Below are positions 18,566 to 51,145 of a DNA stretch of 51,365 nt, piece after piece. The position numbers and the translations under genes are program-made. Position 1 is the stretch's first letter; each line of letters starts with the position of its first letter. The notes under the pieces are model-generated. The model had not been told where the DNA came from. It searched no databases and worked only from the letters and a program-made list of their open reading frames with translations. Source of the DNA: an uncultured Desulfobacterium sp. (GTDB lineage Bacteria; Desulfobacterota; DSM-4660; Desulfatiglandales; Desulfatiglandaceae); NCBI GenBank assembly GCA_900258555.1, contig LT984854.1, positions 1,442,224 to 1,493,588 of the forward strand, in the 5' to 3' direction.

Positions 18566-18609
18566 AGGTCCCTCCATTTTTGTTTGTTCAAATGTTCAGA
18601 AACCGCCCA

Positions 18610-29900: not shown

Positions 29901-29994
29901 CGAGAAACCCCGAGTCGGCCAGATCCAGGGCCGATTGTATACCTGCGATTCCACCGCCGATGACCATGACTGAACCGATTGATTTTTTTGCCAT
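26965..29994 (-). CDS. hdrA: long HdrA with two flavin-type halves, copy 1
   Basis: A 1009-residue protein, about 350 longer than classical HdrA. The first half (about 1-450) is a partial HdrA: VMVIGGGIAGIQSALDLA, FPTNDCAMC, then two clusters CIACGRCAEKCP and CRACQKFCP, and RPYC-like YCSGVCCMYA. The second half starts with IGVFICQCGVNIG, a CSQDAQESI segment, VVAACTPKTHEPLF, a second flavin motif VVGGGISGMVAAKTL, and ends with CTSCGVCVDICP and CKGCGLCVASCR. The layout matches BamE-type HdrA proteins of aromatic degraders. It lies between metF (upstream) and flxC (downstream). It could pass FlxABC electrons to ferredoxin and to methylene-THF reduction; bifurcation is inferred, not shown. Confidence 0.93.
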   Translation of the reverse strand: MAKKSIGSVMVIGGGIAGIQSALDLADSGFLVHMVEKTPAIGGVMSALDKTFPTNDCAMCILSPKLVEVGRHTNINLHTLSEVLSIEGEAGDFQVTVRERPRYIDITKCIACGRCAEKCPKKVADEFNQGLSHRKAVYVPYPQAVPLKYSIDADNCLYFQKGKCRACQKFCPSEAVDYEQKEQIYTIPVGAVIMAPGFESFNPSALRIYGYGSFPNVITAREFERILSASGPFEGHLIRPSDHSQPEKIAWLQCVGSRNIREDAHGYCSGVCCMYAIKEAVIAKEHAEGELDTAIFFMDMRTHGKGFEETYNRARDEQGVRFIRARFHSIDPVKESDDLRLTYFTDDGELNREIFNMVVLSTGLEITQQLHSLSNTMGVETDSDRFIQTNVFSPVKTSRQGLFVAGASSGPKDIPQSVTEASSAAAGAGALLYSARNTLTKERHIPEERDVTGERPAIGVFICQCGVNIGAIVDVPAVRDYAATLPYVEFVMDNLYTCSQDAQESIAKIIMEKGLNRVVVAACTPKTHEPLFQETLVDTGLNKYVFEMTNIRNQCSWVHRDNPELATQKAKDLVRMAIAKVALMEPLKETDLEVDQRALVVGGGISGMVAAKTLSSQGYQVYLVERSGSLGGNSLLISRTWNGEDVQGHLKELIQSVETDSGIEIFKNTVLSNVDGFVGNFKTTLSHDGASDVVEHGVAIIATGGKEYIPDEYLYGKNLKVVTHMELDRMFIAEDDNLKGVKTAVFIQCVGSRVPERPYCSRVCCTHTMKSAIRLKEMAPDRKVFILYRDIRTYGQREELYKKARRLGVIFIRYNLDKKPVVNQRDGHITVTINDHILKKDIELDPDLLVLASGVVPNESESLAQMFKLSVNEDGFFMEAHAKLRPVDFATDGVFLAGMAHYPKPIEESIAQAQAAVSRAVTLLARKKVKVSGTVAQSTPVSCTSCGVCVDICPYSAPSFIKNGPFTGRAEINPALCKGCGLCVASCRSGALNLKGFGTDQIMAMITEL

Positions 29995-30945: not shown

Positions 30946-31610
30946 TGTATCAGCTCTTCCCTCCTGCTCGTACGCGGTCCTCCGTCCCTGGCCGTACGCC
31001 AGTCTTTGGCGGGCATAAAATTCAGGAGGTCATTAAGACGGTCCTGTTCGATTTTCTTCTTTACGATCATATCCCAGATGCAATTGACATCCTTTGATAT
31101 CTCGCATTTTCCCTTGTTCGATCCTCCGCAAGGGCCGTTTAATAGGCTTTTGGAGCACCGGGCCACGGGGCACATGCCGTCAAAATAGTGGATTACACAT
31201 GTACCGCACCCCGCGCAACGCTCCTCCCAGATCCCGTGGCTGACCGCTCCCCCGAAAAACGTGGTATTGACCGCGGGGAAAAACTTCTGGTCCGGGTAGG
31301 CCTCGGACAGAAACTGTGGCCCGACTCCGCAGGCCATGGAAATGACCGCATCATAATCATGGATTGTAGATTTGACCTGTTCGATGTATTCGGGGTCGCA
31401 TTGCCTTTCAAGGACCTTTTCATCCACCTTCAGGCTATAGCCTTCCTTTTTAGCGGCTATCCTTAAGGAGGAGGCCAGTATCCGGACCTCCTTGAGTCCT
31501 CCCACATTGCAGACCGTAACGCAGCCCTTGCACCCTATAATAAGTATATTATCCCTCCCCTTGATCATATCCTGTATCTCGGAAAGGGGTTTTCTATCAG
31601 CAACTATCAT
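30942..31610 (-). CDS. metV: MetV, Fe-S partner of methylene-THF reductase
   Basis: A 222-residue protein of the MTHFR C-terminal (MetV) family. The N-terminal half carries IIGCKGCVTVCNVGG and ERQCDPEY, which resemble zinc or Fe-S ligands. The C-terminal half has a run of Cys motifs (CAGCGTCVIHYFDGMCPVARC, split by several residues, and GPCGGSNKGKCEIS) typical of MetV. It channels electrons to the MetF flavin. It overlaps metF by ATGA and follows an mvhD gene by about 12 bp, so an MvhD-MetVF link is suggested. Confidence 0.92.
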   Translation of the reverse strand: MIVADRKPLSEIQDMIKGRDNILIIGCKGCVTVCNVGGLKEVRILASSLRIAAKKEGYSLKVDEKVLERQCDPEYIEQVKSTIHDYDAVISMACGVGPQFLSEAYPDQKFFPAVNTTFFGGAVSHGIWEERCAGCGTCVIHYFDGMCPVARCSKSLLNGPCGGSNKGKCEISKDVNCIWDMIVKKKIEQDRLNDLLNFMPAKDWRTARDGGPRTSRREELIQ

Positions 31611-35000: not shown

Positions 35001-35107
35001 ACATAATAGCCCGCATTGGCCATATCCAAAGAGGCCTGAATGCCCGCAACACCGGCCCCTACGACCATAACGCTGCCGGTTTTGTTTATCGTATTTATGG
35101 TTGACAT
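32069..35107 (-). CDS. hdrA: long HdrA with two flavin-type halves, copy 2
   Basis: A 1012-residue long HdrA. The first half has VMVVGAGVAGIQASLDMA, FPTNDCAMC, CTACGQCRQVCP and CIGCGMCEKACL. The second half begins IGVFVCNCGINIGG and contains VVGGGIAGMEAALG, RPYCSRVCCTHS and the C-terminal clusters CAACLTCVRTCP and CHGCGCCVSECP followed by KAITLKHFTDDQ. That C-terminal type is shared only with the giant HdrA at 14117-18565, and both are followed by the CCKxCAY type of MvhD. It lies between the MvhD-winged-helix gene and mvhD-metVF. No GltD module is present, so electrons must come from a partner. Confidence 0.93.
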   Translation of the reverse strand: MSTINTINKTGSVMVVGAGVAGIQASLDMANAGYYVHLLDSSPSVGGLMARLDKTFPTNDCAMCVISPFLVEVGRHLNINIIPNSELQSLEGEAGAFRAKVRNNPRYIDSEKCTACGQCRQVCPVTAVNEFDCGLDLRKATFIKFPQAVPLSYTIDRDICIGCGMCEKACLAGAISYADQPRISEIEVGAVVLAMGNEVFDPSMFDTYAYANHPNVVTSLEFERILSASGPYKGHLMRPYDREVPKKIAWLQCIGSRDINRVDHSYCSSVCCMYSIKQSMIAKEHAETPLDAAIFYMDMRTHGKEFDRYRDRAEKENGVRFIRSRVHTVRPMDDGGLKLSYVMESGEIIDEVFDMVVLAAGFSPSRDAKELAQRVGIELNTHGYAMTRDLTPVSTSREGIYVCGTFQSPKDIPQSVMEASAAAASATQELSGSRWSMTKTKGLPPEKDFSEDPPRIGVFVCNCGINIGGVADVPAVREYARSLPNVVHTEDNLFTCSQDTQENIKKVIIEKGINRVVVASCSPRTHEPLFQQTIRETGLNPYLFEMANIRDQNTWVHMKSPKKATEKAKDLVRMAVAKAALIEPLAQVVLDVTQAVLVVGGGIAGMEAALGVARQGFDAFLVERSNQLGGVAHGLNITWQGEAVKPYLDRLIEDVKKNERIKLFLETEVSHVTGTIGNFTTTLKSLNDSAETTTIRHGAGILATGGKEYQPDEYLYGKDPRVMTHLDLDAAIREKSDIVNNVQTAVFIQCVGSRNEQRPYCSRVCCTHSLESALVLKKMNPDMRIFVIYRDIRTYGFREDIYKEAREKGIRFIRYDLSNPAVLTSENGRDLRLTVTDHILGRPIQISPDLVVLAAAILPNENKTLFEHFKVPTNSDGFLVEAHAKLRPVDFASEGLFLAGIAHYPKSMDESIAQAKAAVSRAMKIVSKNTIAVESVVASVNPDLCAACLTCVRTCPYNVPRVGEEGYAIIEASDCHGCGCCVSECPGKAITLKHFTDDQINAKTDALFLGAH

Positions 35108-35125: not shown

Positions 35126-35884
35126 TTATCCGCCAAGGCTTGCAAATCTGGGAGTGTTCTCTTCACAACTGCTTAAATCCGCCAGTCCGTTCAGCTCCAG
35201 TTCGTTGAGCCTTTTTGAAACGGTGTAGACATCAAGCCCGGCCTGATCCGCTATTTCCCGCACCGTTGCAGGCCCTTTGTCTAATGCCTCCTGAATCAAT
35301 GCCTTGTGGTATTCCATGGTGGCCGCATCAGTAATCACCTGTTTGAAATATTCCGGATCGGTCTTTTCGTGATATACGTTTTCATTTTCCGTCAAATGAC
35401 GGTCAATGCCCGCAAGCCAACGCAGGCGTGTGGTGGAAAGCGCCCGGGTTAACGCCCCGAGCGCCATTTTATGGTCATCGGCGGAAAAAGGTCCCAAGCC
35501 CATGATGATCCCGGTCACCTCGGCCACGTTATCTGCAAAGGGCTGGGCCTCGGCGGCACTGGCCCAGCGCAGATGGACCCGGTCCCGGCCTATGCCCGAA
35601 AGATCCAGCAACTGCGACAGCATCTCCATGCGTTTGACCGTATATTTGTTACCGTCCAGGTAATGACAATCGCCGATGTGACAACCGCTCACCAGGACAC
35701 CGTCAAAGCCGTCTTTAAGGGCGTTGATGATAAACAAAGGATCAACACGGCCGGAACACATCGTCCTGATAACGCGGATATAGGGCGGATATTGTATTCT
35801 TGAGACACCCGCCAGATCGGCGCCCGCGTAAGAGCACCAGTTGCACAAAAAAGCAAGAATGTTGGGTTTGAATGATTCATTCAT
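35126..35884 (-). CDS. MvhD with a C-terminal winged-helix domain
   Basis: I chose the ATG at 35884 (GGAG 9 bp upstream); the frame opens at 35899. Of 252 residues, the first 140 are a CNWCSY-type MvhD (FLCNWCSYAGADLAGVSR, MCSGRVDPLF, VSGCHIGDCHY, WASAAEAQPF). After a linker of about 50 residues containing an amphipathic stretch, the end reads GPATVREIADQAGLDVYTVS, then KRLNELELNGLADLSS, a typical winged-helix DNA-binding or protein-binding fold. It starts 28 bp after the giant HdrA-GltD copy 2. A redox [2Fe-2S] carrier joined to a DNA-binding-like domain could sense the redox state, or the wing may serve as a docking domain. No experiment is known to me. Confidence 0.85.
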   Translation of the reverse strand: MNESFKPNILAFLCNWCSYAGADLAGVSRIQYPPYIRVIRTMCSGRVDPLFIINALKDGFDGVLVSGCHIGDCHYLDGNKYTVKRMEMLSQLLDLSGIGRDRVHLRWASAAEAQPFADNVAEVTGIIMGLGPFSADDHKMALGALTRALSTTRLRWLAGIDRHLTENENVYHEKTDPEYFKQVITDAATMEYHKALIQEALDKGPATVREIADQAGLDVYTVSKRLNELELNGLADLSSCEENTPRFASLGG

Positions 35885-35912
35885 TATTTTTTGCTCCATT
35901 TGTTGATTATCA

Positions 35913-38900
35913 TCAGGCAGCGCCTCCGGCGTGAATGACGGCCATAATCTGGCTGTCGCGGAAATGTTTCATGTCAATGGCCTTCTGCGGGCAGCCCGCG
36001 GCGCATACCCCGCAGCCCTTGCAAAGGGCTGAGTAATTTTCCGCCCGAAAACCCTTGCCCGGGACCTGTTTCAACCGGATGGCTCCAAATGCGCAGGAAA
36101 GCTCACACAGGCCGCAACCGATACACTTTTCTTCATCCACCATGGAGACAATAGGCTCGATTTGGATTGATGCCTTGTTAAGAAGAAGCGCGGCCCTGCC
36201 CGCAGCCGCCTGGGCCTGGGAGATGGATTCCTCGATGGGCTTTGGATAATGGGCGAGTCCTGCAACATAAACTCCGTCCGTAGCAAAATCCACCGGCCTT
36301 AATTTAATATGAGCCTCCATATAAAAGCCTTCGTCATTTAGCGGCACCTTCAGCATCTGGGCCAGTTGCTTCTGTCCCTCGGTGGGGATAATGGCCGTTG
36401 CCAAATTCAGATAGTCCACGGCAATCTGGAGCGGCATCTTAAGGACATGGTCTTTTACCGTAATCAGAAGGCCCTGGTCTTCGTCTTTATCTACAACGGG
36501 TTTTTCATCGGCCTCGTAGCGGATAAATATTACGCCCATTTCCCTGGCCTTTTTGTAAAGCTCCTCGCGTTGGCCGAATGTGCGCATATCCCGATAGAGG
36601 ATGTAGACAATAAGATCCGGCCTTTTTTCCTTTAAGGCGATTGCGCTTTTTACCGATGCAGTGCAACATATTTTTGAACAATATGGTCTGGCCGGCTCGC
36701 GGGAGCCAACGCACTGGATAAATGCAACTGCCCGCGCCTGGTCCAGTTTTTCAGGATGCGCATCGAAAAATTGTTCAAGCTCATGCCATTTCGTCACCCG
36801 GTCGCTTTTTCCGTAAAGGTATTCATCGGGCGAAAGGGGTCTTCCGCCTGTAGTAAGAATCACCGCACCGTGAGAAAGTTCGCGATCCCCTTTGGGTGAG
36901 TTGATGGATGTGGTGAAGTTTCCTACAAACCCGTCAATTGCCCTGATCTCTGCTTCGGTTAGGACCTCGATATTCTCATGAGACATGACACGATCTTTGA
37001 GATCGGATAAAAAGGCCTTGACATCATCTCCCCGCCAGGTATCCCGGGACTGAATAAGGGCTTGACCGCCAAGCTCCGAATGCCTCTCCACCAGGTATGT
37101 CTTAAATCCCTGCTGAGCAAGATTTAAGGCGGCACTCATTCCTGAAATGCCTGCCCCTATCACCAAGGCGTCGCGATTGACAGCAATCTCGATTGGTGTT
37201 ATCGGTTCCAGCAGGGCTGACCTGGCCGCCGCCATCCTGACTAGGTCTTTTGCCTTTTGTGTAGCGCTTTCAGGGTCGGCCTGGTGGACCCAGGCGTTTT
37301 GGTCGCGTATATTGGCGAATTCAAACAGATAAGGATTAAGTCCCGCCTCCTGAATGGTCTCCTGAAAAAGTGGTTCATGTGTCCTCGGTGTGCAGGCAGC
37401 CACAACCACCCGGTTAAGCTTATGCTCGGAAATGGCCTTTCGGATGTTTTCCTGAGAGTCCTGGGAGCATGTGAAAAGCGTATGCGAGGTGAAGACCACA
37501 TTCGGGAGACCTTTGGCATAGTCTATTACATCGTTTACGTTCACGACACCAGCGATATTGGTGCCGCAGTGGCACACGAACACACCGATCCTCGGTTCAA
37601 GCCCTGTAACTTCCTGTTGGGCAGGAAGTGACTTTTCCCTGGTAAGGGTATTTCGGGATGAGGAAAGAAGGGCGGTCGCCACAGATGAAGCAGCGGATGC
37701 CTCCATGACCGATTGTGGGATATCCTTGGGACCTGAAAAGGCGCCTGCGGCAAATATGCCGGCCCGCGAGGTGGCGACCGGCGTAAGACAACTTGTGGAT
37801 GCAAAGCCGTCCGAATCCGCCTCGACCCCCAGCCTTTCTGAAAGGTTTTTAATATATTGTGGAATCTCTAAGGCTGTTGAAAGCACCACCATGCTGAAGA
37901 TTTCGTCTTTTAATTCCCCATCATCGCTAAAGTAGGTCAGTTTCAGATCATCGGTTCCCTTAACAGGTTCAATGGAATGGAATCTCGCCCTGATGAACCG
38001 GACCTCTTGTTCATCTCTGGCCCTGTTGTAAGTCTGCTCAAATCCCTTTCCATGGGTCCTCATGTCCATGAAAAATATGGCTGTGTCCAGTTTTACTTCA
38101 GAGTGCTCTTTGGCGATAACAGCCTCTTTGATTGCATACATACAGCAGACACCCGAGCAGTACCCGTGTTCATCCTCGCGGATGTTGCGTGAGCCAACAC
38201 ACTGAAGCCATGCGATTTTTTCTGGAGGGTTATGATCACTGGGTCGCACAAGATGGCCTTCAAAAGGACCGGATGCGCTGAGTATCCTTTCAAACTCCCT
38301 GGCCGTCACTACGTTGGGAAGTTTTCCGTATCCGTATATGTCCATGGCCCCAGGATCAAAACTCTCAGAGCCCGGCGTCATGATCACAGCGCCGACATCA
38401 ACTGTCAGGGTTTCCGTCTTTTGGGCGTGGGTGTCAAATGTGACGGCCCCTGCCTTACAAGCGGTTACGCATTCATAACATTCACAGCATCCACCGCAAT
38501 TAATACAGCGTTCAGCCTCTGCTTTTGCAGTTTCTTTGTCTGCGGTAAGATTGACCTCTTCAAATCCTTTGAGTCTTTTTTCTACGTTTAGGGTCGGCGC
38601 CTTCAAGCGATGCCTGACAGGTTCATCATCCTGGATTCCAACCCAGTTCGTACCCATGGGTGGTTCATCTTGCCATTGTTGAGGCAACTCTTCACCCTGT
38701 AAATATTTTTCAATATACCGGGCGGCGCGTTTACCGGCTTCCACCGCCTCTATAACGGTTGCAGGTCCGGTAACAACATCTCCGCCGGCAAATACGCCGT
38801 CAATATTGGTCTGTAATGTTTCAGGGTTGACCTCTAAAAGATTCCATTTTGATATTTTCAGCTCTGCTCTGTCTCCCAGAAAACCCAGATCCGGCTCCTG

Positions 38901-40367
38901 GCCGATGGCAGGGATAATATGATCGGCTGCAATGGTAAATTCCGAACCCTCAATGGGAACAGGCTTTCGTCTTCCAGTGGTATCCGGTTGAGTTAGACGG
39001 GTGGCAATACATTTGATACCTGTAACCTTACCGTTTTCATTGTTTATTTCTACAGGGGCCGTGAGAAAGTGGATCTTTACACCTTCCTTTTCAGCCTCTT
39101 CTATCTCCTCCGGCTCTGCCAACATCTCTGTTTTTGAACGGCGATAGATGATATGTGATTCATCCGCACCCAACCTGAGCGCAACCCTCGCCCCATCCAG
39201 GGCCGAATGGCCACCACCGATAATAACCGCTTTTCCTGAAATCTTTTTTAGTTTTCCAAGATGAACATTTCGAAGAAAGGTTGTAACATCCTCTACACCC
39301 TCTGATTCTTCTCCCTGGATATGAAGTTTTAAACCCTTCCATGCTCCTGCAGCCAAAAATACGGCCTTTGCGCCGTGTTGTTGAAGCTCTTCAATGGTGA
39401 GATTTTTTCCAATGGCCGTATTGGTAATAATTTCTATGCCGTATCGCTTGAGGTTGTTGATCTCGGCATCCAGCACGGCGCGGGGAAGGCGGTGCTCGGG
39501 GATTCCGTAGCGCATCATGCCGCCTGCCTCGGGCATTGCCTCATAGACGCTTACCTGATAGCCGTCCTGCGCAAGAAAGTAGGCTGCCGTAAGCCCCGCA
39601 GGACCGGAACCGATGATCGCAACCTTTTCATCCCGTTTTTTAATCTCAGGAACCGGGATTTCATTTAAGTCAGTATTATCCGCGGCAACTCTTTTGAGTT
39701 CCCTTATGGAAATGGCCTCGTCAATTTCAAGACGCCGGCAGCTTTTTTCGCAGGCATGGGGACAGACCCGGCCAAGGGTCCCCGGAAACGGCAGATCCCG
39801 CATGATAATTTGAACGGCCTCCCGGAATTTTCCCTGCTTGACCATTTGGACATAGCCCTGCACATTGATATGGGCGGGGCAGGCGGCCCTACATGGCGCC
39901 TTGTCCAATTTTTCGATCGCATAGCCGCTCGGGATTGCCTGGGCATAGGGTTTATACGCGGCCTTTCGCATAGACAAACCCATATCAAAGGTACTGGGTC
40001 TTGTCACCGGACACACGCCGGCGCAGTCTCCGCATGCCGTGCAGGCATCAAGGTTAATAAAACGCGGGGCCTTACTGAGCGTTATATGAAAGTTGCCGGG
40101 CTCTCCGTCAACGGACTCCACATCCGCGCATGTGTACAGGCGGATGTTCGCGTGTCTTCCTACCTCCACGAGCTTGGGAGAAAGTATACACATGGAGCAG
40201 TCGTTGGTGGGAAAGGTCTTATCTAACGCACTCATCACTCCGCCGATGGCGGGTGATTTTTCCACTATGTGGACCAGAAATCCTGCACCGGCCAGGTCCA
40301 GGGCGGACTGTATGCCTGCGATTCCGCCGCCTATGACCATGACGGAACCGATTGAATGTTTCGACAT
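35913..40367 (-). CDS. hdrA: giant HdrA with inserted GltD-type NAD(P)H module, copy 2
   Basis: A 1484-residue protein with the same plan as the one at 14117-18565. Residues 1-152 are HdrA (VMVIGGGIAGIQSALDLA, FPTNDCSMC, CTACGDCAGVCP at 109-120). About 153-650 is the GltD module: CRAACPAHINVQGYV, FAD motif IIGSGPAGLTAA near 251, pyridine-nucleotide motif IIGGGHSALDGAR near 382, AGGDVVTGP near 528, then CINCGGCCECYECVTAC at 621. The interrupted HdrA half then resumes (VDVGAVIMTPGSESFD). A second HdrA half starts near 935 (IGVFVCHCGTNIAG, VIGAGISGMSAALN) and ends with CIGCGLCELSCA and CKGCGVCAAGCP. Compared with the 1009-1014-residue paralogues the module sits exactly between two Cys motifs. 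In the nucleotide loop His-Ser replaces Asn-Val of copy 1 (GGGHSA against GGGNVA). Confidence 0.92.
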   Translation of the reverse strand: MSKHSIGSVMVIGGGIAGIQSALDLAGAGFLVHIVEKSPAIGGVMSALDKTFPTNDCSMCILSPKLVEVGRHANIRLYTCADVESVDGEPGNFHITLSKAPRFINLDACTACGDCAGVCPVTRPSTFDMGLSMRKAAYKPYAQAIPSGYAIEKLDKAPCRAACPAHINVQGYVQMVKQGKFREAVQIIMRDLPFPGTLGRVCPHACEKSCRRLEIDEAISIRELKRVAADNTDLNEIPVPEIKKRDEKVAIIGSGPAGLTAAYFLAQDGYQVSVYEAMPEAGGMMRYGIPEHRLPRAVLDAEINNLKRYGIEIITNTAIGKNLTIEELQQHGAKAVFLAAGAWKGLKLHIQGEESEGVEDVTTFLRNVHLGKLKKISGKAVIIGGGHSALDGARVALRLGADESHIIYRRSKTEMLAEPEEIEEAEKEGVKIHFLTAPVEINNENGKVTGIKCIATRLTQPDTTGRRKPVPIEGSEFTIAADHIIPAIGQEPDLGFLGDRAELKISKWNLLEVNPETLQTNIDGVFAGGDVVTGPATVIEAVEAGKRAARYIEKYLQGEELPQQWQDEPPMGTNWVGIQDDEPVRHRLKAPTLNVEKRLKGFEEVNLTADKETAKAEAERCINCGGCCECYECVTACKAGAVTFDTHAQKTETLTVDVGAVIMTPGSESFDPGAMDIYGYGKLPNVVTAREFERILSASGPFEGHLVRPSDHNPPEKIAWLQCVGSRNIREDEHGYCSGVCCMYAIKEAVIAKEHSEVKLDTAIFFMDMRTHGKGFEQTYNRARDEQEVRFIRARFHSIEPVKGTDDLKLTYFSDDGELKDEIFSMVVLSTALEIPQYIKNLSERLGVEADSDGFASTSCLTPVATSRAGIFAAGAFSGPKDIPQSVMEASAASSVATALLSSSRNTLTREKSLPAQQEVTGLEPRIGVFVCHCGTNIAGVVNVNDVIDYAKGLPNVVFTSHTLFTCSQDSQENIRKAISEHKLNRVVVAACTPRTHEPLFQETIQEAGLNPYLFEFANIRDQNAWVHQADPESATQKAKDLVRMAAARSALLEPITPIEIAVNRDALVIGAGISGMSAALNLAQQGFKTYLVERHSELGGQALIQSRDTWRGDDVKAFLSDLKDRVMSHENIEVLTEAEIRAIDGFVGNFTTSINSPKGDRELSHGAVILTTGGRPLSPDEYLYGKSDRVTKWHELEQFFDAHPEKLDQARAVAFIQCVGSREPARPYCSKICCTASVKSAIALKEKRPDLIVYILYRDMRTFGQREELYKKAREMGVIFIRYEADEKPVVDKDEDQGLLITVKDHVLKMPLQIAVDYLNLATAIIPTEGQKQLAQMLKVPLNDEGFYMEAHIKLRPVDFATDGVYVAGLAHYPKPIEESISQAQAAAGRAALLLNKASIQIEPIVSMVDEEKCIGCGLCELSCAFGAIRLKQVPGKGFRAENYSALCKGCGVCAAGCPQKAIDMKHFRDSQIMAVIHAGGAA

Positions 40368-41731: not shown

Positions 41732-42523
41732 CTATCTTGGTCCCGCCGGCAGCGCCATCTCCTCGCCCAAAAAAGAGAAGGGCGATGGGATGTCCTTTGC
41801 TCCGGGCGTGTAGTTGAATATCTCTTCAACCAGTGCGTTTACCTTTTTGTAGAGCGAACGTAAGGGAATGCGGGCCGGACAGACCATTTCGCACATGCCG
41901 CAATCCACGCAACGGCCCGCCATGTGGACCGCCCGGACCAAGTGAAATGTTGTATCCGGTGGAAGCTTTTCCGCCTGCACGAGGGTTTGGTTTTCAAGAC
42001 TGCACTCCGTGCAAAAGCATACAGGGCATACATCGCGGCATCCGTAACACTTAAGACAGCGATTCAGATGACCAAGCCACCATGAAAGTCGTGTGTCCAG
42101 CGCCATCTGTTCCAGGGCTTTAACCTTGTTACTTTCTTTGACCGGCATTACTGATTCACCGTAGTCGAGAGAATCAGGGTAGGGCTTTTTGCACTCACAT
42201 TCTTCTGAAAGCTCTTTGGTGCATGCCTGACCCAGTGTTACCACCTTTTCACGCCGGAGCTGGTTCCACTTGAAAAGTTCCTCAAGGCCTCGTTCTTCAC
42301 ATCCCCTTAAAAGAATCCCAAAGGTCTTGTCCGGCTCCTGCCGAGCCTGGGCCAGCAACATCTTTAAGATTGGATATCGCGCATGACTTGGCTTCCAAGG
42401 CTCCAGCTCATTCATGTTTTCCTTTGTAAATATCGCAGGAAAGGGAAAGCCGTTTACCGTCTTGTAGGCAAAAAAACCATCAACCCGTTTTTCTTCCAAA
42501 AGCTTCTTTATCTTTGTATTCAT
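41732..42523 (-). CDS. FdhB/FlxC-like 4Fe-4S dicluster protein
   Basis: A 263-residue relative of the protein at 25991-26941. The N-terminal part has a FrhB/FdhB-like ILLRGCEERGLEEL and a short Cys cluster (ACTKELSEECECKKP). The C-terminal part has CLKCYGCRDVCPVCFCTEC and CVDCGMCEMVCPARIP, then a helical tail. Here it stands between an mvhD gene and the HdrC-HdrB fusion rather than next to flxAB. With the NuoG/FdhA-like gene at 48482 upstream in the same array it could be a formate-dehydrogenase-type beta subunit, but its direct partner is not clear. Confidence 0.82.
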   Translation of the reverse strand: MNTKIKKLLEEKRVDGFFAYKTVNGFPFPAIFTKENMNELEPWKPSHARYPILKMLLAQARQEPDKTFGILLRGCEERGLEELFKWNQLRREKVVTLGQACTKELSEECECKKPYPDSLDYGESVMPVKESNKVKALEQMALDTRLSWWLGHLNRCLKCYGCRDVCPVCFCTECSLENQTLVQAEKLPPDTTFHLVRAVHMAGRCVDCGMCEMVCPARIPLRSLYKKVNALVEEIFNYTPGAKDIPSPFSFLGEEMALPAGPR

Positions 42524-42558: not shown

Positions 42559-43002
42559 TCACAAATTCGCCACTGATTGGGGAACAGCTTCGAGTCCCGG
42601 CGCCGGGCCCAGGTTTCTGATCTTTTCCGTGAATTCATTGACAACCTCCGCAAACTTGATCCCCTCAGCGGCGGAGATCCATTCAAGCCGCAGTCTTTCA
42701 GGGTTGTAACCGGCCATGCTGAAGAGGCCCTCTACGAATTTTATCCTCTTAAGCGTCATGTAATTGCCCCTGATATAATGGCAGTCGCCTATATGGCACC
42801 CTGCCACCAGCACGCCATCAGCACCGTTTTGAAAGGCATGAAAAATGTGATGGGGTGAGATTGTACCCGAACACATCACGCGGATAATGCGGATGTTCGG
42901 GGGGTATTGCAAACGGCTTACACCAGCCAGGTCTGCCCCGGCGTAACTGCACCAGTTGCAGAGAAAGGCCAGTATCCTAGGTTCAAATTGTATATCTTTC
43001 AT
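42559..43002 (-). CDS. mvhD: MvhD-type subunit, CNWCSY type
   Basis: A 147-residue MvhD protein: FLCNWCSYAGADLAGVSRLQ, MCSGTISPHH, VAGCHIGDCHY, WISAAEGIKF. It begins 18 bp after the HdrA gene at 43021 with a GAGGTG site. It is most like the C-terminal domain of the HdrA-MvhD fusion and the MvhD-winged-helix protein. It should transfer electrons between this HdrA and the downstream FdhB-like/HdrCB proteins. Confidence 0.92.
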   Translation of the reverse strand: MKDIQFEPRILAFLCNWCSYAGADLAGVSRLQYPPNIRIIRVMCSGTISPHHIFHAFQNGADGVLVAGCHIGDCHYIRGNYMTLKRIKFVEGLFSMAGYNPERLRLEWISAAEGIKFAEVVNEFTEKIRNLGPAPGLEAVPQSVANL

Positions 43003-43020: not shown

Positions 43021-46000
43021 TCAATACTTTGTCGCCAGAGCCTGTTCAATCTGCGTGTAGAGCTGCGTATGACTGAAGCCCATTAATGAGATGGCCTCGG
43101 ACGTGCAAGCAGCAGCACAGGTGCCGCAGCCTTTGCAAAGGGCCTGATTGACTTCGGAGCGGGATTCGGCCTCAATATATGAGATCGCGCCGAAGGGGCA
43201 ACACTCAACACAGATATGACAACCGCAACACCTTTCTCTGTCAATGACAGCAGCCACCCCCCCGGCCATGATAGAGTCTTTGGCCAGGACCGTAGCAGCC
43301 CTTGCGGCCGCAGCCTTAGCCTGGGCGATACATTCCTCAATAGGCTTGGGATAATGGGAAAGTCCCGCAACAAAGACTCCGTCTGTCGCAAAATCCACAG
43401 GGCGAAGCTTCATGTGCGCCTCCAGAAAAAATCCTTCCTGATTCCGCGGCACCTTGAAGTGCTTTGCCAGGGATTCGGTATTAACGGGCACAATGGCGCT
43501 TGCCAAGGTAAGGATGTCAGCCTCCAAAAGGATAGTCCGTTTAAGAACATGATCAAAAACTTCAATCTCAAGTCCGTCGCCATCAACGGCAACCTTGGGC
43601 TTTTGATCAACATCAAAACGGAAAAACAGCACACCCTTTTTTCTGGCCTCCTGATAGAGTCTTTCCCGCAAACCATAGGTCCGGATGTCCCTGTAGAGGA
43701 TTGAGACCCTCATGGACGGGTTCAATTCCTTAAGGGCCAGGGCGCTTTCAATGGAATGGGTACAGCATACACGGCTACAGTATGGCCTTTCCGCCTCTCT
43801 TGATCCCACACACTGGATAAAAACGGCGGATTGGGCGTTTAAAACCGCCTCGTCTTTTTTCTTTATGGCGCGGTCAAGATCAAGGCTGAGATAAATCCTG
43901 TCGCTGTCGCCATATTGATACTCATTGGGTTGATATGCATTTCCGCCTGTAGCTATAATTGCAGCACCGTGAGAGATCTGCTTATGCTCGCCATTAACGT
44001 CCACAATCGTTGAAAAGTTGCCCACAAAGCCTTTTACCTCTTCAACGACCGCGTTTACATGCACGCTTATTAGTGGATTTTCGCTAACATCCCTTATGAC
44101 ACCCTTGAGATAATCAGTTACAGATGCGCCGCTCCAACTGCTGTTGAGAAACTTAGCATTGCCGCCAAGCGTGGGACCTGCCTCCACCAGGGTCACAGGA
44201 TAGCCCTGACCTGCCAAAGACCGGGCCGCTTCCATACCCGCCACACCCCCTCCAATAACAAGGCCTGATTTTGTTACACCCAGGGCCTGCTCTTTTAGAG
44301 GCTCCTGAAGCGCTACCTTGGCAACGGCCATTCGGACTAAGTCCTTTGCCTTTTCCGTTGCCGCTTCAGGCGTCTTTTGATGGACCCAGGAATTTTGATC
44401 ACGGATATTTGCCAGTTCAAAAAGATACTTGTTTAGGCCTGTTTCCTGAATGGTCTGTTGAAAAAGCGGTTCATGCGTCCTTGGAGAACAAGAGGCCACC
44501 ACAATGCGATTCAGCTTATGTTCCCGAATGGTCTCCTTCATCTGATCCTGTGTATCCTGTGAGCAGGTGAAAAGATTTTCCTGTGCGTAAACCACATGGG
44601 GTAGTCCTTCCGCATAGGTCTTCACCGCGGGCACATCCACCACTGAGCCGATATTAATGCCGCAGTGGCACACGAACACCCCTATACGCGGATCTTCAGA
44701 GGATATGTCTCTTTCTTCGAGTATCTCTTTTTCTCTGGTCTGGGTATTTCTGGAACTGCTTAAAAGGGCGCTTGCCTCGGCGGCGGCGGAGCTTGCCTCC
44801 ATGACGGACTGTGGTATATCCTTTGGTCCGGCAAAGGCGCCGCATACATAAATACCTTCCTTTGATGTTGAAACGGGACGGAAGGCGCCTGTTTTGCAAA
44901 ACCTGCCATCCGTAAGATTTATACCCAATTTATCGGCAAGTTTTATTGAATCAGGGGATATTTCCAGACCGACGGACAATACGAGCATTCCAAAGGTTTC
45001 TTCGATGATCTCACCCTGCTCATTGACGTATTTCACACGCAGATCGCCAGTACCCGCAACAGATTCAACTGTATGCACCCTGGCTCGGATAAAGCGGACA
45101 CCATGTTTTTCCCTGGCGGTGTCATAATATTTTTCAAATTCCTTTCCATGTGTCCGCATGTCCATGTAGAAAATGGAGCAGTCCAGATCGCTTCCCGCGT
45201 GTTCCTTTGAGATCACCGCCTCTTTGATCGCGTAGGTGCAGCAAACCGCGGAACAATAACCGTTATCGCAACGGTTCATGTCCCTGGAGCCTATGCACTG
45301 AAGCCAGGCGATGCGTCGCGGATCTTTTTTGTCCGAAGGCCGCACCAGATGGCCCTGATTCGGTCCGGACGGGGCAAGGATGCGCTCAAATTCCATGGCC
45401 GTTACGACGTTAGGAAATCGTGAATAACCATAGGTGTCATATAAGGTCGGATCGAAGGGCTGAAATCCTGGGGATAGAATAATGCCGCCCACGTTGAGGG
45501 TGAAATCCCTGTCTGTATCTTCAAAATTTATCGCACCGGCGGGACACAGTTTTTCACAGGCCCGGCATTTTCCTTTTTCAAAGTAGATGCAGTTATCTTT
45601 ATCAATGGCGTACTTTAGAGGCACGGCCTGAGGGAATTTCACATAAGCGGCCTTACGTTGATTCAGACCCTGATTGAATTCGTCATTGACCTTTCGCGGG
45701 CATTTTTCCGCGCATGCCCCGCAGGCAATGCATTTTTCCATATCAATGTATCGCGCCTTCTGATGCAGACTTACCTGAAAATTTCCGGCCCGGCCCTCTA
45801 TCCCCTCAACATCGGTCAGGGTGATGATTTCGATATTGGGGTGTCTGCCGCATTCCACCAGCTTGGGAGAAAGAATACACATGGAACAGTCATTGGTGGG
45901 AAAGGTCTTATCCAGGGCGCTCATGGTCCCGCCTATGGCCGCCGTGTTTTCGATCAGATATACAAAGTAACCAGTGTCGGCCAGATCAAGGGCGGCCTGG

Positions 46001-46065
46001 ACGCCCGCAATGCCGCCTCCAACCACCATAACCGATCCGATTATGTTCTGAGATGTATTGGTCAT
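43021..46065 (-). CDS. hdrA: long HdrA with two flavin-type halves, copy 3
   Basis: A 1014-residue long HdrA. First half: VMVVGGGIAGVQAALDLA, FPTNDCSMC, CIACGACAEKCP, CRACEKLCP. Second half: IGVFVCHCGINIGS, VVASCSPRTHEPLF, VIGGGVAGMEAARSL, RPYCSRVCCTHS, and C-terminal clusters CCGCHICVECCP and CKGCGTCAAACT. The first C-terminal motif has an extra Cys and His (RCCGCHICVECCPF), unlike the others. It stands directly downstream of nfnB (18 bp) and upstream of mvhD (18 bp), so NfnAB is the natural NAD(P)H side of this unit. Confidence 0.93.
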   Translation of the reverse strand: MTNTSQNIIGSVMVVGGGIAGVQAALDLADTGYFVYLIENTAAIGGTMSALDKTFPTNDCSMCILSPKLVECGRHPNIEIITLTDVEGIEGRAGNFQVSLHQKARYIDMEKCIACGACAEKCPRKVNDEFNQGLNQRKAAYVKFPQAVPLKYAIDKDNCIYFEKGKCRACEKLCPAGAINFEDTDRDFTLNVGGIILSPGFQPFDPTLYDTYGYSRFPNVVTAMEFERILAPSGPNQGHLVRPSDKKDPRRIAWLQCIGSRDMNRCDNGYCSAVCCTYAIKEAVISKEHAGSDLDCSIFYMDMRTHGKEFEKYYDTAREKHGVRFIRARVHTVESVAGTGDLRVKYVNEQGEIIEETFGMLVLSVGLEISPDSIKLADKLGINLTDGRFCKTGAFRPVSTSKEGIYVCGAFAGPKDIPQSVMEASSAAAEASALLSSSRNTQTREKEILEERDISSEDPRIGVFVCHCGINIGSVVDVPAVKTYAEGLPHVVYAQENLFTCSQDTQDQMKETIREHKLNRIVVASCSPRTHEPLFQQTIQETGLNKYLFELANIRDQNSWVHQKTPEAATEKAKDLVRMAVAKVALQEPLKEQALGVTKSGLVIGGGVAGMEAARSLAGQGYPVTLVEAGPTLGGNAKFLNSSWSGASVTDYLKGVIRDVSENPLISVHVNAVVEEVKGFVGNFSTIVDVNGEHKQISHGAAIIATGGNAYQPNEYQYGDSDRIYLSLDLDRAIKKKDEAVLNAQSAVFIQCVGSREAERPYCSRVCCTHSIESALALKELNPSMRVSILYRDIRTYGLRERLYQEARKKGVLFFRFDVDQKPKVAVDGDGLEIEVFDHVLKRTILLEADILTLASAIVPVNTESLAKHFKVPRNQEGFFLEAHMKLRPVDFATDGVFVAGLSHYPKPIEECIAQAKAAAARAATVLAKDSIMAGGVAAVIDRERCCGCHICVECCPFGAISYIEAESRSEVNQALCKGCGTCAAACTSEAISLMGFSHTQLYTQIEQALATKY

Positions 46066-46082: not shown

Positions 46083-47534
46083 CTATGCATTCATCAAATA
46101 TTCGTGCATGGCGGCCGCGGCTCGCCGTCCTTCGCCCATGGCGCTGATAACCGTCGCCCCGCCGGAGACGATATCTCCGCCTGCCCAGACCCTGGCCTTG
46201 GATGTTTTGCCACGCTCGTCAACAATTACGGTTCCATGCCTGGATGTATCAAGGTCGGGCGTATTGGAGGCTATTAACGGGTTGGGAGATGTTCCCAGAG
46301 AAACCGCAACAGTATCCACCTCCATTGTGTATTCGCTTCCGGCAATGGGGACTGGCCTCCTTCTGCCGCTGGCGTCCGGTTCGCCCAGTTTCATGCGCAT
46401 AAGCTCCATGGCGGCCACATTATTCCTGCCGTCACTAATAAAGGCCGTGGGCGTACACAGGAAGTGAAAATGGATTCCTTCTTCCTCAGCATTTTCCACT
46501 TCTTCAAGGCGCGCGGGCATCTCCTGCCTGGTGCGGCGGTAGATGACGTAGACATCCTGGGCCCCCAGCCGAACGGCACAACGGGCCGAATCCATTGCCA
46601 CGTTTCCGCCTCCGATAACCACCACGCGCTTTCCCATCTTGATCGGGGTTGCGAATTCCGGGTGTAGATAGGCCTTCATCAGATTGGTGCGCGTCAAGAA
46701 CTCGTTTGCAGAGTAAATCATGTTCAGGTTTTCCCCTGGGACTCCTAAAAACATGGGAAGTCCCGCGCCCGTGGCCAGATAAACGGCGTCGAACTTGTTA
46801 TTGAGGAGTTCATCCAGACTGTAGTTGATCCCGATCACCGTATCGAGAAAGAGTTCAACGCCTAAAGATTCCACATATCGGACCTCGCGCTGTACGATCT
46901 CCTTGGGAAGCCTGAACTGAGGGATACCGTACATCAAAACACCGCCCGCCACATGAAGGGCCTCGAACATAGTTACCTGATGGCCGAGCAAGGCCATGTC
47001 GGATGCCACGGTAAGCCCTGAGGGGCCGGTGCCCACAACCGCTACACGCTTTTTTGTTGCGGGGGCGATCTCCGGCAGCGCTGATACCCCCTGTTCGCGC
47101 TCCCAGTCCGCAAGGTAACGCTCCAGACGTCCGATGGCAATGGGCGCCCCTTTTTTGTTGAGCATACAGGAGTTTTCGCACTGGAGTTCCTGAGGGCAGA
47201 CCCTGCCGCATATTCCGGGAAGAGACGTCTTTTTTTTCAGGACCCGTAAGGCCCCGTTTATGTCTTCCTTCTGGAGACATGCGATAAAGTCGGGGATGTC
47301 AATATTGACAGGACAGCCCTGTTGACAGAAACGCTTCTTGCACTGAAGACATCTGCCTGCCTCCTTCATGGCCATTTCGTGTGTATAGCCGGTAGCCACT
47401 TCATCGAAATTGCGTCTTCGGACCTCCGGGGTCTGCTTCGGCATATCCATCCGGTTGAGGTTGATCTTGGGTTTTTTGTCCTGGGATGTCGTCTGATTCG
47501 TCATGGATTCTTTTGTCTCACTCATATCATTCAT
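46083..47534 (-). CDS. nfnB: NfnB/GltA-type NADPH-binding Fe-S flavoprotein
   Basis: From the ATG at 47534 (AAAGGAG 8 bp upstream) the product is 483 residues; the frame opens at 47585. It is a GltD-like protein: N-terminal clusters CLQCKKRFCQQGCPVNID and CGRVCPQELQCENSC, FAD motif VVGTGPSGLTVASDM, NADPH motif VIGGGNVAMDSARCA and WAGGDIVSGGATVI at the end. In Nfn this large subunit holds the bifurcating FAD. It lies 26 bp after nfnA. Its sequence is related to the GltD modules inside the two giant HdrA proteins, so the array has the same module both free and fused. Confidence 0.92.
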   Translation of the reverse strand: MNDMSETKESMTNQTTSQDKKPKINLNRMDMPKQTPEVRRRNFDEVATGYTHEMAMKEAGRCLQCKKRFCQQGCPVNIDIPDFIACLQKEDINGALRVLKKKTSLPGICGRVCPQELQCENSCMLNKKGAPIAIGRLERYLADWEREQGVSALPEIAPATKKRVAVVGTGPSGLTVASDMALLGHQVTMFEALHVAGGVLMYGIPQFRLPKEIVQREVRYVESLGVELFLDTVIGINYSLDELLNNKFDAVYLATGAGLPMFLGVPGENLNMIYSANEFLTRTNLMKAYLHPEFATPIKMGKRVVVIGGGNVAMDSARCAVRLGAQDVYVIYRRTRQEMPARLEEVENAEEEGIHFHFLCTPTAFISDGRNNVAAMELMRMKLGEPDASGRRRPVPIAGSEYTMEVDTVAVSLGTSPNPLIASNTPDLDTSRHGTVIVDERGKTSKARVWAGGDIVSGGATVISAMGEGRRAAAAMHEYLMNA

Positions 47535-47560
47535 ATGTCTGGCTCCTTTGTCCCCATCTC

Positions 47561-48406
47561 TTACCATTGCGAACATCCCCTGCACTGAAACCCCTGCTGA
47601 AAGATGCTCTCATCCGCATAGGTGCAGCGCCGTGCCATCAGGACCTCCCAGCCGCTGATTTCATGTCCGTCGAATTCAGGGCCATGCACACACGCAAAGC
47701 GGTTATTTCCCTTCACGCTTACCCTGCATGCCCCGCACATCCCGGTGCCGTCTACCATGAGCGGAGTAAGATGCACCATGGTCTTGACTTTGTAAGGCCG
47801 CGTGATTTCGCTAACCACTTTCATCAGACAGAGGGAACCCATCAAAATTACCCTGTCCACGGGGTTTCTATGCCGTTCGGCCAGGAGTTTTCTTATAGGC
47901 TTTGTGGCGCTAGTTGACATGTCTTCCCCGTCTTCGCCGATGGCAAGGATCAACTTATCACTTGTAGATGACAGCTCGGCTTCACCGAAGATCCTCTCGC
48001 GGTCAGGGGCCTGAAGTATGGTAGTGACACGGTTTCCCTTTTCTTTGAGCGCATTAAGAATTGGCACGATGGCCGAAACACCGTATCCGCTTGCAACGGC
48101 CACCACATGTCCGAAACGCTCCACCTCCGTGGGAACTCCCAGGGGCCCGACAAAATGGGCCAGGGCGTCTCCTGACTTTAATCCCGCCAATTGGGATGTG
48201 GTCCTTCCCACGGCTACATATACAAAGTCCACTGTGCCGGCCTTTGCATCCCATGCGCTGATTGTGAAAGGAACCCTCTCACCTTTTTCATCTACAATCA
48301 GAATGACAAATTGACCGGGCCTGGTCTTTTCCGCGACCGCGGGTGCGGTTACACGCATGCGATAGACGTTTTTTGATAGTTGTTGGTGCGAAACAATTGG
48401 AAACAT
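47561..48406 (-). CDS. nfnA: NfnA-type FAD/NAD(H) and [2Fe-2S] subunit
   Basis: A 281-residue ferredoxin-NADP reductase-like protein, the usual partner of NfnB. FAD region: TRPGQFVILIVDEKG, VPFTISAWD. NAD region: VAVASGYGVSAIVPIL and MGSLCLMKVVSE. [2Fe-2S] ligands: GTGMCGACRVSV and RFACVHGPEFDGH. It exchanges electrons with NADH, and together with NfnB may bifurcate between NADPH, NAD and ferredoxin. It is followed by nfnB and preceded, after a 75-bp gap with no visible signal, by the NuoG/FdhA-like gene. Confidence 0.92.
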   Translation of the reverse strand: MFPIVSHQQLSKNVYRMRVTAPAVAEKTRPGQFVILIVDEKGERVPFTISAWDAKAGTVDFVYVAVGRTTSQLAGLKSGDALAHFVGPLGVPTEVERFGHVVAVASGYGVSAIVPILNALKEKGNRVTTILQAPDRERIFGEAELSSTSDKLILAIGEDGEDMSTSATKPIRKLLAERHRNPVDRVILMGSLCLMKVVSEITRPYKVKTMVHLTPLMVDGTGMCGACRVSVKGNNRFACVHGPEFDGHEISGWEVLMARRCTYADESIFQQGFQCRGCSQW

Positions 48407-48481: not shown

Positions 48482-51145
48482 CTATTCTTTGACTTCACAC
48501 TTCATGCTTCTCTCTTCCAACTTCTGTTTCTCCACCCTGGCGGCAACCACTCTGCCGTTTAAGACCGGGGCTCCAGCCTGTTGTCCCAGATTTTCCTGAG
48601 ATACGGCTACAAGCCCGGAGGGTAACAATGCATTCATAACCAACGCGCCCTCCCAGTTGCCGGATCGGCCTTCCACATGGATTGAATCCCCGGGCGCAAG
48701 CCCCATACCGAATGCGTCTGCCGGGTTCATCTCTATTTGAGCCTCGGGATTCAACAAAGAAAGGACTTCTCCTGCAAGAAGGGGACCCGCAAAAAAGGGC
48801 CTCAGATGATCTTTTTCAATCACGGCGAAGGGATAATCCGTATCAGGTATGTCTTCCGCCGTTTCCGGTATTTCCGGCAGCCAGGGGATATATTGGGGCG
48901 TTTGACCGGAAAACAATACCGGTGTTCCGGGATGCTGTTCATCCGGACAGGGCCACTGAACCGGCAAACGCTCCGCAGTAATCCCGGCATAGACAGGGAT
49001 ATTTTTTCTGATTTCCGCAAATACGGCGTCGCTGTCTTCATATGAAAAACCAGGGGCCTTCATCCGGCGGGCAAGTTCCGTCAAAACCCATTGAACGGAT
49101 TTGGCTTCCCCTGGAGGATTCAAGACCGGCGTCACCTTGCGGACCATGCGCTGAGAGCTGGTGATCGTTCCCCCTTTTTCCAGCACAGCGGCCATGGGCA
49201 GCACCACATCCGCCTTTACCGGGGGCATGACTACATCCTGGATCACAACGAAATCCAGCTTCTCCAGATAGGGCTTAAATGCATTCAGGCGGCTTCCTTC
49301 AAGACTTTCCAGGGCAAGATACAATGCCTTGATCTTTCCTGATTTCAGGGATTCCAACACATCCCCGGCATTTTGGTTTTCAACCTGGCCGGGGAGGAGG
49401 TGAGATACCATTCCCATATCCCAGGCCCCCTGGAGGTTGCTGTCGCCATAAAGGGGCAGGATGCCGCCGCCCGGGATTCCAAGGCTATTCTTTATATAGG
49501 AAAGAGTTATCAATGCATGGACCGCCTTGCCTGCCTGATGGGATTCAAGCAAACCAAGGCCGTAGAGGATGCGTATGACGGGCGCGCCGGCCAGAATGGA
49601 TGCGGCTTCCGTGAGCGTTTCCTGAGGCGTTCCTGTAATTCTCGCAACCGTTTCTGGATCATAGGGCAAAAGGTCTTGCATCAGCCCATTTGTTTCCACA
49701 CCGCACTGTTCAAAAAATCTCTTGCCATCTTTATGTTTCGCCAGGATCAGACGGAGAAGACCTGCAATCAGCGCCGTTTCCGTGCCAGGATAATAGCTAA
49801 GGTGCACGTCAGCATAACGCGCAATGGATACGCCATAGGGATTTGCAACAATGAGCTTTGTTCCGCTTAAGGCAGCCATTCTGATCAATGCGCCTGAGAT
49901 GGGATGACTGGCAGGCGGATTAAACCCGACTGCAAAGATGCACCCGGCCAGATCCATGTCATTAAGGCTGTTGGTCCCAGCCGCCAGGCCCAGATTTACC
50001 CGGAGGACTTCCGCCGCGGACATGTGGCCCTTGGGCGTAATGCAACCTATTGCATCGGTTTTAAGCGCATCGCGGCCGAACTTTTGCATGAGGAAAAGCT
50101 CTTCATTAGTGGCCCGGCCATCGCTGATAACGGCAACCTCTCCCGGTCTGTAGCTTTGAAGCCTTTGCGCTATTATTTTTATTGCTGCATCCCAACTGGT
50201 CTCCTGAAACGCGCTGCTTTCAAATACAAGCGGCAGCGTAAGCCTTTCGGGGTTTTGTAGATAACCCTTGAGGAGAAAACGTCCCTGCACGCATGCCTGC
50301 CCCATATTGACCGGCCCTGCCGGGTCTGGTTTTATCCCTCTGATATGATTTGAGTCGCTCAACTCAAAAATCATGCCGCACCCTGCATCGCAAAGTGTAC
50401 ACAAGGAAGATTCGGACCGTATCGGCATTTCACGGCCATAAAGGCCCATTACGATATCGGCAAGCGGTGTGCATACATGCTCGATTTTCAGGCGGCCCGC
50501 TTCTTCAGCGGGCTCAGGCCGTTCGCGCAGCGCCCCCACAGGACAGACATCCAGGCAGGCCCCGCAGAACTGGCACCCGGCCTCTTCCAGGGGACGATCA
50601 AAATGGGTGCTTACCTCGGATATGCCGTTGATTTCGCGCAACACTATAGCTTTTGAGCCCCTCACTTCATGGCAGATGCGCACGCATCTGCCGCAGTGGA
50701 CGCACAGATTGTAATCCCGTTCAAAATATGACCCTGCGGGTTTTATTGAGGCCTCGTCACGCACATATGATTGATAAGGAAAATCAATGCCCACCTGAGC
50801 GATCAGATTCTGCAATTCACAGACGCCGTTTTTAGGACATCCCAGACATTGACGGGGATGCCTTTCCAGTATGAGACGCAGCATTTCCCGGCGAAATTCC
50901 AGGACCTTGGGCGTATGGGTCTGCAACTTCATCCCGTTTTCCACCGGTGTGGCGCACGCAGCCGGAAGCCCTCGATAGCCTTGGATTTCCACCGCACAAA
51001 GACGGCATGATCCGACAGGCTCCAAAAAGGGATGATAACAAAGACGAGGGATTTCAATCCCAGCGTTATCCGCCGCATCCATAACGGTCTGACCCTGTTC
51101 AGCGGTTATTTCGTGACCATTGATCCAAAGCTTTATTTCATTCAT
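48482..51145 (-). CDS. NuoG/FdhA-like Fe-S and molybdopterin-fold protein with altered active site
   Basis: An 887-residue protein. The N-terminal 220 residues are like NuoG/HydA: [2Fe-2S] (CYHPFLEPVGSCRLC and later Cys64), the His-Cys3 cluster (HPRQCLGCPKNGVCELQ), then two [4Fe-4S] sets (CVHCGRCVRIC, CQFCGACLDVCP). A MopB domain follows with CTLCDAGCG and the fourth Cys (ACVQG, near 285). In formate dehydrogenases a Sec or Cys followed by His comes after HCAR. The matching region here (residues 363-376) reads TDAIGCITPKGHMS, without a Cys/Sec-His pair. So either the enzyme is not a formate dehydrogenase or the fold is used only for electron transfer, as in NuoG. It is the first gene of the array. 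Confidence 0.85.
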   Translation of the reverse strand: MNEIKLWINGHEITAEQGQTVMDAADNAGIEIPRLCYHPFLEPVGSCRLCAVEIQGYRGLPAACATPVENGMKLQTHTPKVLEFRREMLRLILERHPRQCLGCPKNGVCELQNLIAQVGIDFPYQSYVRDEASIKPAGSYFERDYNLCVHCGRCVRICHEVRGSKAIVLREINGISEVSTHFDRPLEEAGCQFCGACLDVCPVGALRERPEPAEEAGRLKIEHVCTPLADIVMGLYGREMPIRSESSLCTLCDAGCGMIFELSDSNHIRGIKPDPAGPVNMGQACVQGRFLLKGYLQNPERLTLPLVFESSAFQETSWDAAIKIIAQRLQSYRPGEVAVISDGRATNEELFLMQKFGRDALKTDAIGCITPKGHMSAAEVLRVNLGLAAGTNSLNDMDLAGCIFAVGFNPPASHPISGALIRMAALSGTKLIVANPYGVSIARYADVHLSYYPGTETALIAGLLRLILAKHKDGKRFFEQCGVETNGLMQDLLPYDPETVARITGTPQETLTEAASILAGAPVIRILYGLGLLESHQAGKAVHALITLSYIKNSLGIPGGGILPLYGDSNLQGAWDMGMVSHLLPGQVENQNAGDVLESLKSGKIKALYLALESLEGSRLNAFKPYLEKLDFVVIQDVVMPPVKADVVLPMAAVLEKGGTITSSQRMVRKVTPVLNPPGEAKSVQWVLTELARRMKAPGFSYEDSDAVFAEIRKNIPVYAGITAERLPVQWPCPDEQHPGTPVLFSGQTPQYIPWLPEIPETAEDIPDTDYPFAVIEKDHLRPFFAGPLLAGEVLSLLNPEAQIEMNPADAFGMGLAPGDSIHVEGRSGNWEGALVMNALLPSGLVAVSQENLGQQAGAPVLNGRVVAARVEKQKLEERSMKCEVKE

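Follow-up and report, generated by a model that had tools for sequence, protein, structure and literature searches.

The analysed window, a stretch of 51,365 nucleotides from an uncultured Desulfobacterium sp., carries a gene for an FdhA-like protein, here called FdhL, followed on the same strand by five genes for redox proteins (Table 1). The FdhL ORF starts with ATG and runs without an in-frame stop. Pfam models were matched in the order Fer2_4, NADH-G_4Fe-4S_3, Fer4_Nqo3, Molybdop_Fe4S4, Molybdopterin and Molydop_binding, the last of them weakly (24.2 bits versus a Pfam cut-off of 26.8, compared with 84.5 bits for the catalytic relative L018). The Molybdopterin match spanned residues 301-693, and the MopB domain is of full length. 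The nearest solved structures were the alpha subunits of NAD-linked formate dehydrogenases. The top NCBIfam match was Fdh-alpha (TIGR01591), with 339 bits against a cut-off of 666, and the second was NuoG, with 266 bits against 470, so that neither equivalog was reached. The preliminary description of this DNA had expected automatic annotation to call the protein a formate dehydrogenase; this would hold for a best-hit pipeline but not for a model-based one, which would assign neither Fdh-alpha nor NuoG because the scores are below the cut-offs. A Sec codon was also sought, and an in-frame TGA, present in other FdhA-type genes of the same genome, was absent from the FdhL gene.

Table 1. Features of the FdhL locus, in window coordinates
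Feature	Position	Strand	Remarks
FdhL (FdhA-like, five Fe-S cluster ligand sets and full-length MopB domain)	48482..51145	-	887 aa
[2Fe-2S] ligands C36, C47, C50, C64	50954..51040	-	invariant in 17 orthologues
His-Cys3 [4Fe-4S] ligands H96, C100, C103, C109	50819..50860	-	invariant in 17 orthologues
Two [4Fe-4S] ligand sets of the ferredoxin-like domain, C148/151/154/201 and C158/191/194/197	50543..50704	-	invariant in 17 orthologues
MopB [4Fe-4S] ligands C249, C252, C256, C285	50291..50401	-	invariant in 17 orthologues
Gln287, replacing FdhF K44 (CVKG to CVQG)	50285..50287	-	Q in 17/17 orthologues; K in 10/10 catalytic relatives
Gly373-His374, aligned with catalytic U140-H141 of E. coli FdhF	50024..50029	-	from alignments
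Tyr566, replacing FdhF R333	49448..49450	-	R in 0/17 orthologues; R in 10/10 catalytic relatives
SudB/NfnA-like subunit	47561..48406	-	281 aa; [2Fe-2S] motif D-x4-C-x2-C (DGTGMCGAC, 219-227)
SudA/NfnB-like subunit	46083..47585	-	listed ORF 500 aa; R225 (= T. maritima NfnB R187) and CGRVCPQE present
HdrA, tandem HdrA arrangement	43021..46065	-	1014 aa
MvhD/FlpD-like [2Fe-2S] subunit	42559..43002	-	147 aa
FdhB-type ferredoxin protein	41732..42523	-	263 aa; residues 123-256 resemble the C-terminal ferredoxin part of archaeal FdhB

The conserved six-gene unit

The partner proteins were assigned from motifs and profile matches. SudA matched T. maritima NfnB with 548 bits, and a second NfnB-like gene (57% identity) was found elsewhere in the genome of the window; judged from the orthologue matches, most of which start around residue 20, the true start of SudA probably lies approximately 50 nt downstream of the listed one. 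In the first half of HdrA, K281 aligned with the Lys located near the bifurcating FAD (K409 in 5ODC), and the second half carries Glu773. The FdhB relatives of the 263-aa protein belong to archaeal Fdh-Hdr complexes; only ferredoxin-type domains were found in this protein, with no FAD/F420 domain detected.

The extent of the unit was traced by searching every orthologous locus with the proteins of the window (tblastn). The genes for FdhL, SudB, SudA, HdrA, MvhD and the 263-aa FeS protein occurred in identical order and on the same strand in every sufficiently long orthologous locus, and the FdhL gene, which had been described as heading the redox array, stood first in all of them. Three loci that end early (L014, L016 and L047) agreed with this order as far as they extend, except for L014, in which the match to the 263-aa protein lies on the opposite strand at the contig end and the order cannot be read across. 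HdrA carries an NfnB-like insertion in L052, L099 and, up to the end of the contig, apparently L016. The HdrD-like gene that comes next after the unit in the window was not constant among the loci, and no HdrB/HdrC-type acceptor subunit was conserved within the unit. Such conservation of an operon suggests that the six products may form a physical complex. No description of the six-gene unit was found in the open literature searched.

Several further genes of the window encode related proteins. A MetF-like (310 aa) and a MetV-like (222 aa) protein, both assigned by eye, are encoded at 30013-31610, between two HdrA genes (26965-29994 and 32069-35107) and near an MvhD-like gene (35126-35899), which suggests that the FdhL unit is followed downstream by a MetFV-Hdr-MvhD cluster. 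The product of the MvhD-like gene has 257 aa, and its C-terminal stretch weakly matched helix-turn-helix regulator models; a fusion of a redox subunit and a regulator is possible. Two HdrL-type giants of 1486 and 1484 aa, consisting of HdrA with a GltD/NfnB-like insertion, are encoded at 14117-18577 and 35913-40367. Another MopB-family oxidoreductase (663 aa as listed) lies at 289-2280, and its N-terminus may be longer than listed, because the MopB match begins at the first residue.

Active-site positions, cluster ligands and fold

The motif GCITPKGHMS was found exactly where it had been reported, at residues 367-376 of FdhL (50018-50047, minus strand). HMMER and MAFFT alignments were concordant in placing its TPK-G373-H374 opposite ARV-U140-H141 of FdhF; the HMMER alignment of FdhL to 9WXB was ungapped around the catalytic site, and the MAFFT alignments comprised FdhL, the Sec-containing paralogues of the same genome and E. 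coli FdhF. The position of the Mo ligand is occupied by Gly in FdhL, with a His in register next to it, and the earlier claim that the protein lacks the Cys/Sec-His pair is consequently right for the first residue of the pair but not for the second. Among 17 orthologues, the U140 position was occupied by G in 14 cases and by S, N and E in the remaining ones (Sec/Cys in 0 of 17), the H141 position by H (seven), Q (three), L (three), R, C, D and a gap, and the R333 position by Y, F, W, D or L. Q335, R204 and R581 of FdhF were lost in all 17. In contrast, each of the 10 catalytic relatives carried C/U, H, K, R, Q, R and R at the positions of U140, H141, K44, R333, Q335, R204 and R581. Four of these residues, K44, R204, Q335 and R581, are presumed by us to contact the pterin cofactor in FdhF. 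In R. capsulatus FDH, the counterparts of R333 and H141 are Arg587 and His387, for which roles in positioning formate and in raising the pKa of the Cys ligand have been proposed (PMC7171172). Other positions conserved in formate dehydrogenases were still present in the orthologues, namely N337 (17/17), N176 (16/17) and the neighbouring glycines.

The preliminary description had named another Cys/Sec-His pair in the active site as an observation that would refute it. No such pair was conserved in the MopB domain of the 17 orthologues, where the only invariant Cys residues were the four cluster ligands. In L060 (G450:C509:11842-14379), the most decayed orthologue, the active-site loop contains a gap and the sequence near the position of FdhF R333 is shortened, but the ACVQGR cluster motif is still present. 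The loss of catalytic residues, seen in 17 of 17 orthologues versus intact sites in 10 of 10 catalytic relatives and confined to one branch of the tree (SH-aLRT 100), is beyond chance. Judged from the sequence, FdhL is not a formate dehydrogenase by any catalytic criterion tested.

The Fe-S ligands behaved in the opposite manner. The preliminary description had listed all N-terminal and MopB ligands as present in FdhL, and this extends to the clade, with 20 of 20 ligands invariant in 17 of 17 orthologues. Within the clade, the three N-terminal Fe-S regions had mean pairwise identities of 68, 79 and 81%; the value was 57% for the MopB cluster region, 35% for the active-site loop and 38-48% for the other parts of the MopB domain (301-860), whereas in full-length catalytic formate dehydrogenases the matching regions gave 42, 41 and 51% (N-terminal), 53% (cluster), 80% (loop) and 50-60% (other MopB parts). 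In 51 of the 184 columns conserved in catalytic formate dehydrogenases, the conserved residue was missing from every one of the 13 aligned orthologues, and the active-site loop ranked as the sixth lowest among 171 runs of such columns (random-sample p of 0.004). The decay is spread over the whole MopB domain, with the loop among the worst-kept runs. This inverted conservation fits selection for cluster wiring and fold, and not for metal-pterin chemistry.

The MopB half, including its cluster, could instead be purely structural and serve assembly, with electrons passing through the N-terminal NuoG-like clusters only or bypassing FdhL. We regard this as unlikely, though deserving of consideration: it agrees with the fast divergence of residues 301-860 and with StnC, in which the two clusters of the FdhF branch lie outside the electron path and have a role in assembly (PMC10482914), but the MopB cluster region is better conserved than the other MopB parts, its four Cys are invariant in 17 of 17 orthologues, and the gene of an FdhB-like partner is located nearby, FdhB being the protein that works with FdhA in Fdh-Hdr complexes.

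The fold of FdhL was modelled with AlphaFold (seven sequences in the alignment; mean pLDDT of 69). The MopB domain mostly reached 75-95, whereas residues 116-240 stayed below 50 and the N-terminal Fe-S domain was poorly predicted; a helix starts at residue 374, just past the active-site loop. Formate dehydrogenases ranked first for the model in both Foldseek and VIA-align. The whole-chain rmsd in these comparisons was 14-18 Å, owing to the poorly predicted N-terminal domain, and only the match of the MopB domain was used. Compared alone with E. coli FdhF (1AA6), this domain gave a Z of 31.8 over 598 residues with an rmsd of 4.2 Å. The model thus supports a retained MopB fold, a match that is uninformative on cofactor occupancy.

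The preliminary description had also considered a Mo/W enzyme for another substrate. In this case, FdhL would bind Mo/W-bisMGD without a protein metal ligand, as arsenite oxidase does, and catalyse a different reaction, which appears to us very improbable. The full-length fold with its match to FdhF, the His374 of the window protein and the kept N176, N337 and nearby glycines are in its favour. They are outweighed, in our judgement, by the variability of the active-site loop among orthologues (35% identity) and its gap in L060, by the loss in 17 of 17 orthologues of K44, R204, Q335 and R581, all conserved in every catalytic relative, by a MopB domain that has gained no new invariant Cys, and by a Molydop_binding score under the cut-off.

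Phylogeny and distribution of the FdhL clade

Orthologues were gathered from genome contigs and whole genomes; a TAG in the orthologue L057, considered as an internal stop, proved to be the normal terminal stop. In the tree, which included 16 inactive sequences, these formed one branch with a long stem (SH-aLRT 100), and no firm point of attachment among the active formate dehydrogenases was recovered. Active FdhA relatives with Cys/Sec are widespread in the phylum: relatives of the Cys-His FdhA of L018 were present at an E value of 1e-150 or better in 198 of 297 genomes. The inactive clade is more restricted and was found in 15 of 39 genomes of one order, belonging to two families, and in the genome of the window. 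The 60 other genomes closest to that of the window yielded no member, the single additional match among them (L029) being a Cys-His formate dehydrogenase. Because its presence is patchy, this distribution suggests horizontal transfer of the gene into the lineage of the window. Among the hosts of the clade is apparently the model syntroph Syntrophobacter fumaroxidans, which is in cultivation. The MAG that contains L018 bears the label Dehalococcoides; in L018 the gene for a Cys-His FdhA is directly followed by SudB and SudA, without HdrA, and this arrangement is a plausible picture of the active ancestral type.

Among the six subunits, FdhL was the least conserved at nearly all loci (44-55% identity versus 59-84% for the others), as would be expected if it were a functionless, decaying pseudo-enzyme that hitch-hikes in the operon. 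We give this explanation hardly any credence, since the frames are open in all examined orthologues, the Fe-S ligands are complete, the Fe-S domain is conserved at 68-81%, and the first position in the unit has been kept in two family-level groups as well as in the family of the window.

Proposed role of FdhL and comparison with known systems

The reading that we consider likely is that FdhL is an FDH alpha subunit that has lost catalysis, is most probably devoid of Mo/W-bisMGD and has been kept as an Fe-S conduit and assembly scaffold in a predicted six-subunit complex. It would probably act as a wire or scaffold between two flavoprotein modules and not as an enzyme. The earlier proposal of an electron-transfer subunit like NuoG is supported by the clade-wide retention of the clusters and loss of catalytic and several presumed cofactor-contacting residues. 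Residual cofactor binding may nevertheless persist, as the MopB domain is of full length and several FDH-conserved positions (N337, N176) are kept.

In the proposed soluble complex of FdhL, SudB, SudA, HdrA, MvhD and the FdhB-like ferredoxin, FdhL would be the first subunit and would join the NfnAB module to the HdrA-MvhD module. The NfnAB-type flavins in SudB and SudA would be the site at which NAD(P)(H) reacts. These FAD/NAD(P) subunits are the likely hydride entry points, and the earlier view that the role of FdhL determines the substrate of the whole system is probably mistaken. We infer that electrons would travel by way of the FdhL clusters and the FdhB-like ferredoxin to MvhD and on to the bifurcating HdrA flavin (FAD), or along the reverse route, and that the NADPH/NADH and ferredoxin pools would be coupled in this way to some HdrA acceptor. 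Both SudA and HdrA retain residues adjoining the bifurcating flavins. More tentatively, and as a conjecture that may well turn out otherwise, two bifurcation sites (NfnB FAD and HdrA FAD) could be joined here by a dead formate dehydrogenase, giving a bacterial NAD(P)H-linked counterpart of Elp-Hdr that evolved independently from an active FdhA-NfnAB. If so, a single machine would allow sulphate reducers and syntrophs to link NADPH, NADH and ferredoxin with an HdrA acceptor. To our knowledge, the donors of HdrA in sulphate reducers are largely unknown, and the complex, if real, would provide an additional NAD(P)H-linked feed to HdrA modules. Formate is a central interspecies carrier among sulphate reducers and syntrophs; genome surveys of these organisms tend to count such genes as formate dehydrogenases, and FdhL should not be counted. 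The apparent presence of the clade in the cultivated S. fumaroxidans makes the idea testable.

FdhL would be a third dead FdhA kept as a redox connector, beside StnC and ElpA. The principle is already known, and it is the six-gene combination that was not found in the open literature searched. The FdhF-like domain of StnC is catalytically inactive, and its removal or changes to its cluster ligands block tetramer assembly (PMC10482914). Like the FdhL unit, StnC of the Sporomusa-type Nfn StnABC (8OH5/8OH9; PMC10482914) combines a NuoG-like Fe-S domain, an inactive FdhF-like domain and an NfnB/GltD-like NADPH module. Unlike the FdhL unit, StnC is one fused chain that works with StnAB of the NuoE/NuoF type, without NfnA and HdrA, and bifurcation has been lost from its GltD part; in the FdhL unit the genes are separate, NfnA and HdrA-MvhD are present, NuoE/NuoF-like genes are absent from the conserved unit, and SudA keeps the Arg that adjoins the FAD in NfnB.

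The electron-donating arm of Hdr in Methanothermobacter consists of ElpA, which is homologous to FdhA but has no molybdopterin, together with ElpB (FdhB-like) and ElpC (MvhD-like), ElpA serving in ElpABC-HdrABC (PMC12350162). The archaeal Elp-Hdr system resembles the FdhL unit in having an FdhA homologue without molybdopterin function, FdhB and MvhD homologues alongside and HdrA as a partner (PMC12350162). ElpA, however, is truncated, lacks a MopB domain and is partnered by an F420H2-oxidising FdhB-type subunit, whereas FdhL has a full-length decayed MopB domain and a NuoG-type N-terminus, is accompanied by NfnAB genes and has an FdhB-like partner without a detectable F420/FAD domain. The FdhL system combines features of StnC and ElpA, and matches the defining features of neither.

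FdsA and the alpha subunit of MeFDH1 (6TG9, 7VW6, 9WXB) were closest to FdhL by profile (685 bits to 9WXB) and share its domain order and five cluster sites; FdhL differs from them in lacking Sec/Cys, the cluster-adjacent Lys, the substrate-pocket Arg and NuoE/NuoF partner genes. Complex I NuoG shares with FdhL the N-terminal cluster ligands ([2Fe-2S], His-Cys3 [4Fe-4S] and further [4Fe-4S]) and a MopB domain without catalysis, but FdhL stays below the NuoG model cut-off, lies outside any nuo operon and has no NuoE/NuoF-type neighbours. SudA and SudB are close homologues of NfnAB (T. maritima 4YLF; P. furiosus 5JCA) with the key motifs present, although NfnAB is a stand-alone heterodimer and the SudA and SudB genes are tied to FdhL and HdrA-MvhD.

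Two additional FdhA-type genes were noted. The genome of the window contains a second FdhA-like gene (G000:C2:344276; L042 6271-8925), encoding 884 aa with YLSGRS at the Sec-His site and accompanied by NuoE-like and NuoF/GltD-like genes and a MetV-MetF-like pair; its product is another inactive FdhA connector, apparently in a methylene-THF reductase cluster. In a Chloroflexi MAG (L019 10001-13930), a GltD/NfnB-like domain is fused to a Sec-containing FdhA, in a StnC-like layout with an intact active site.
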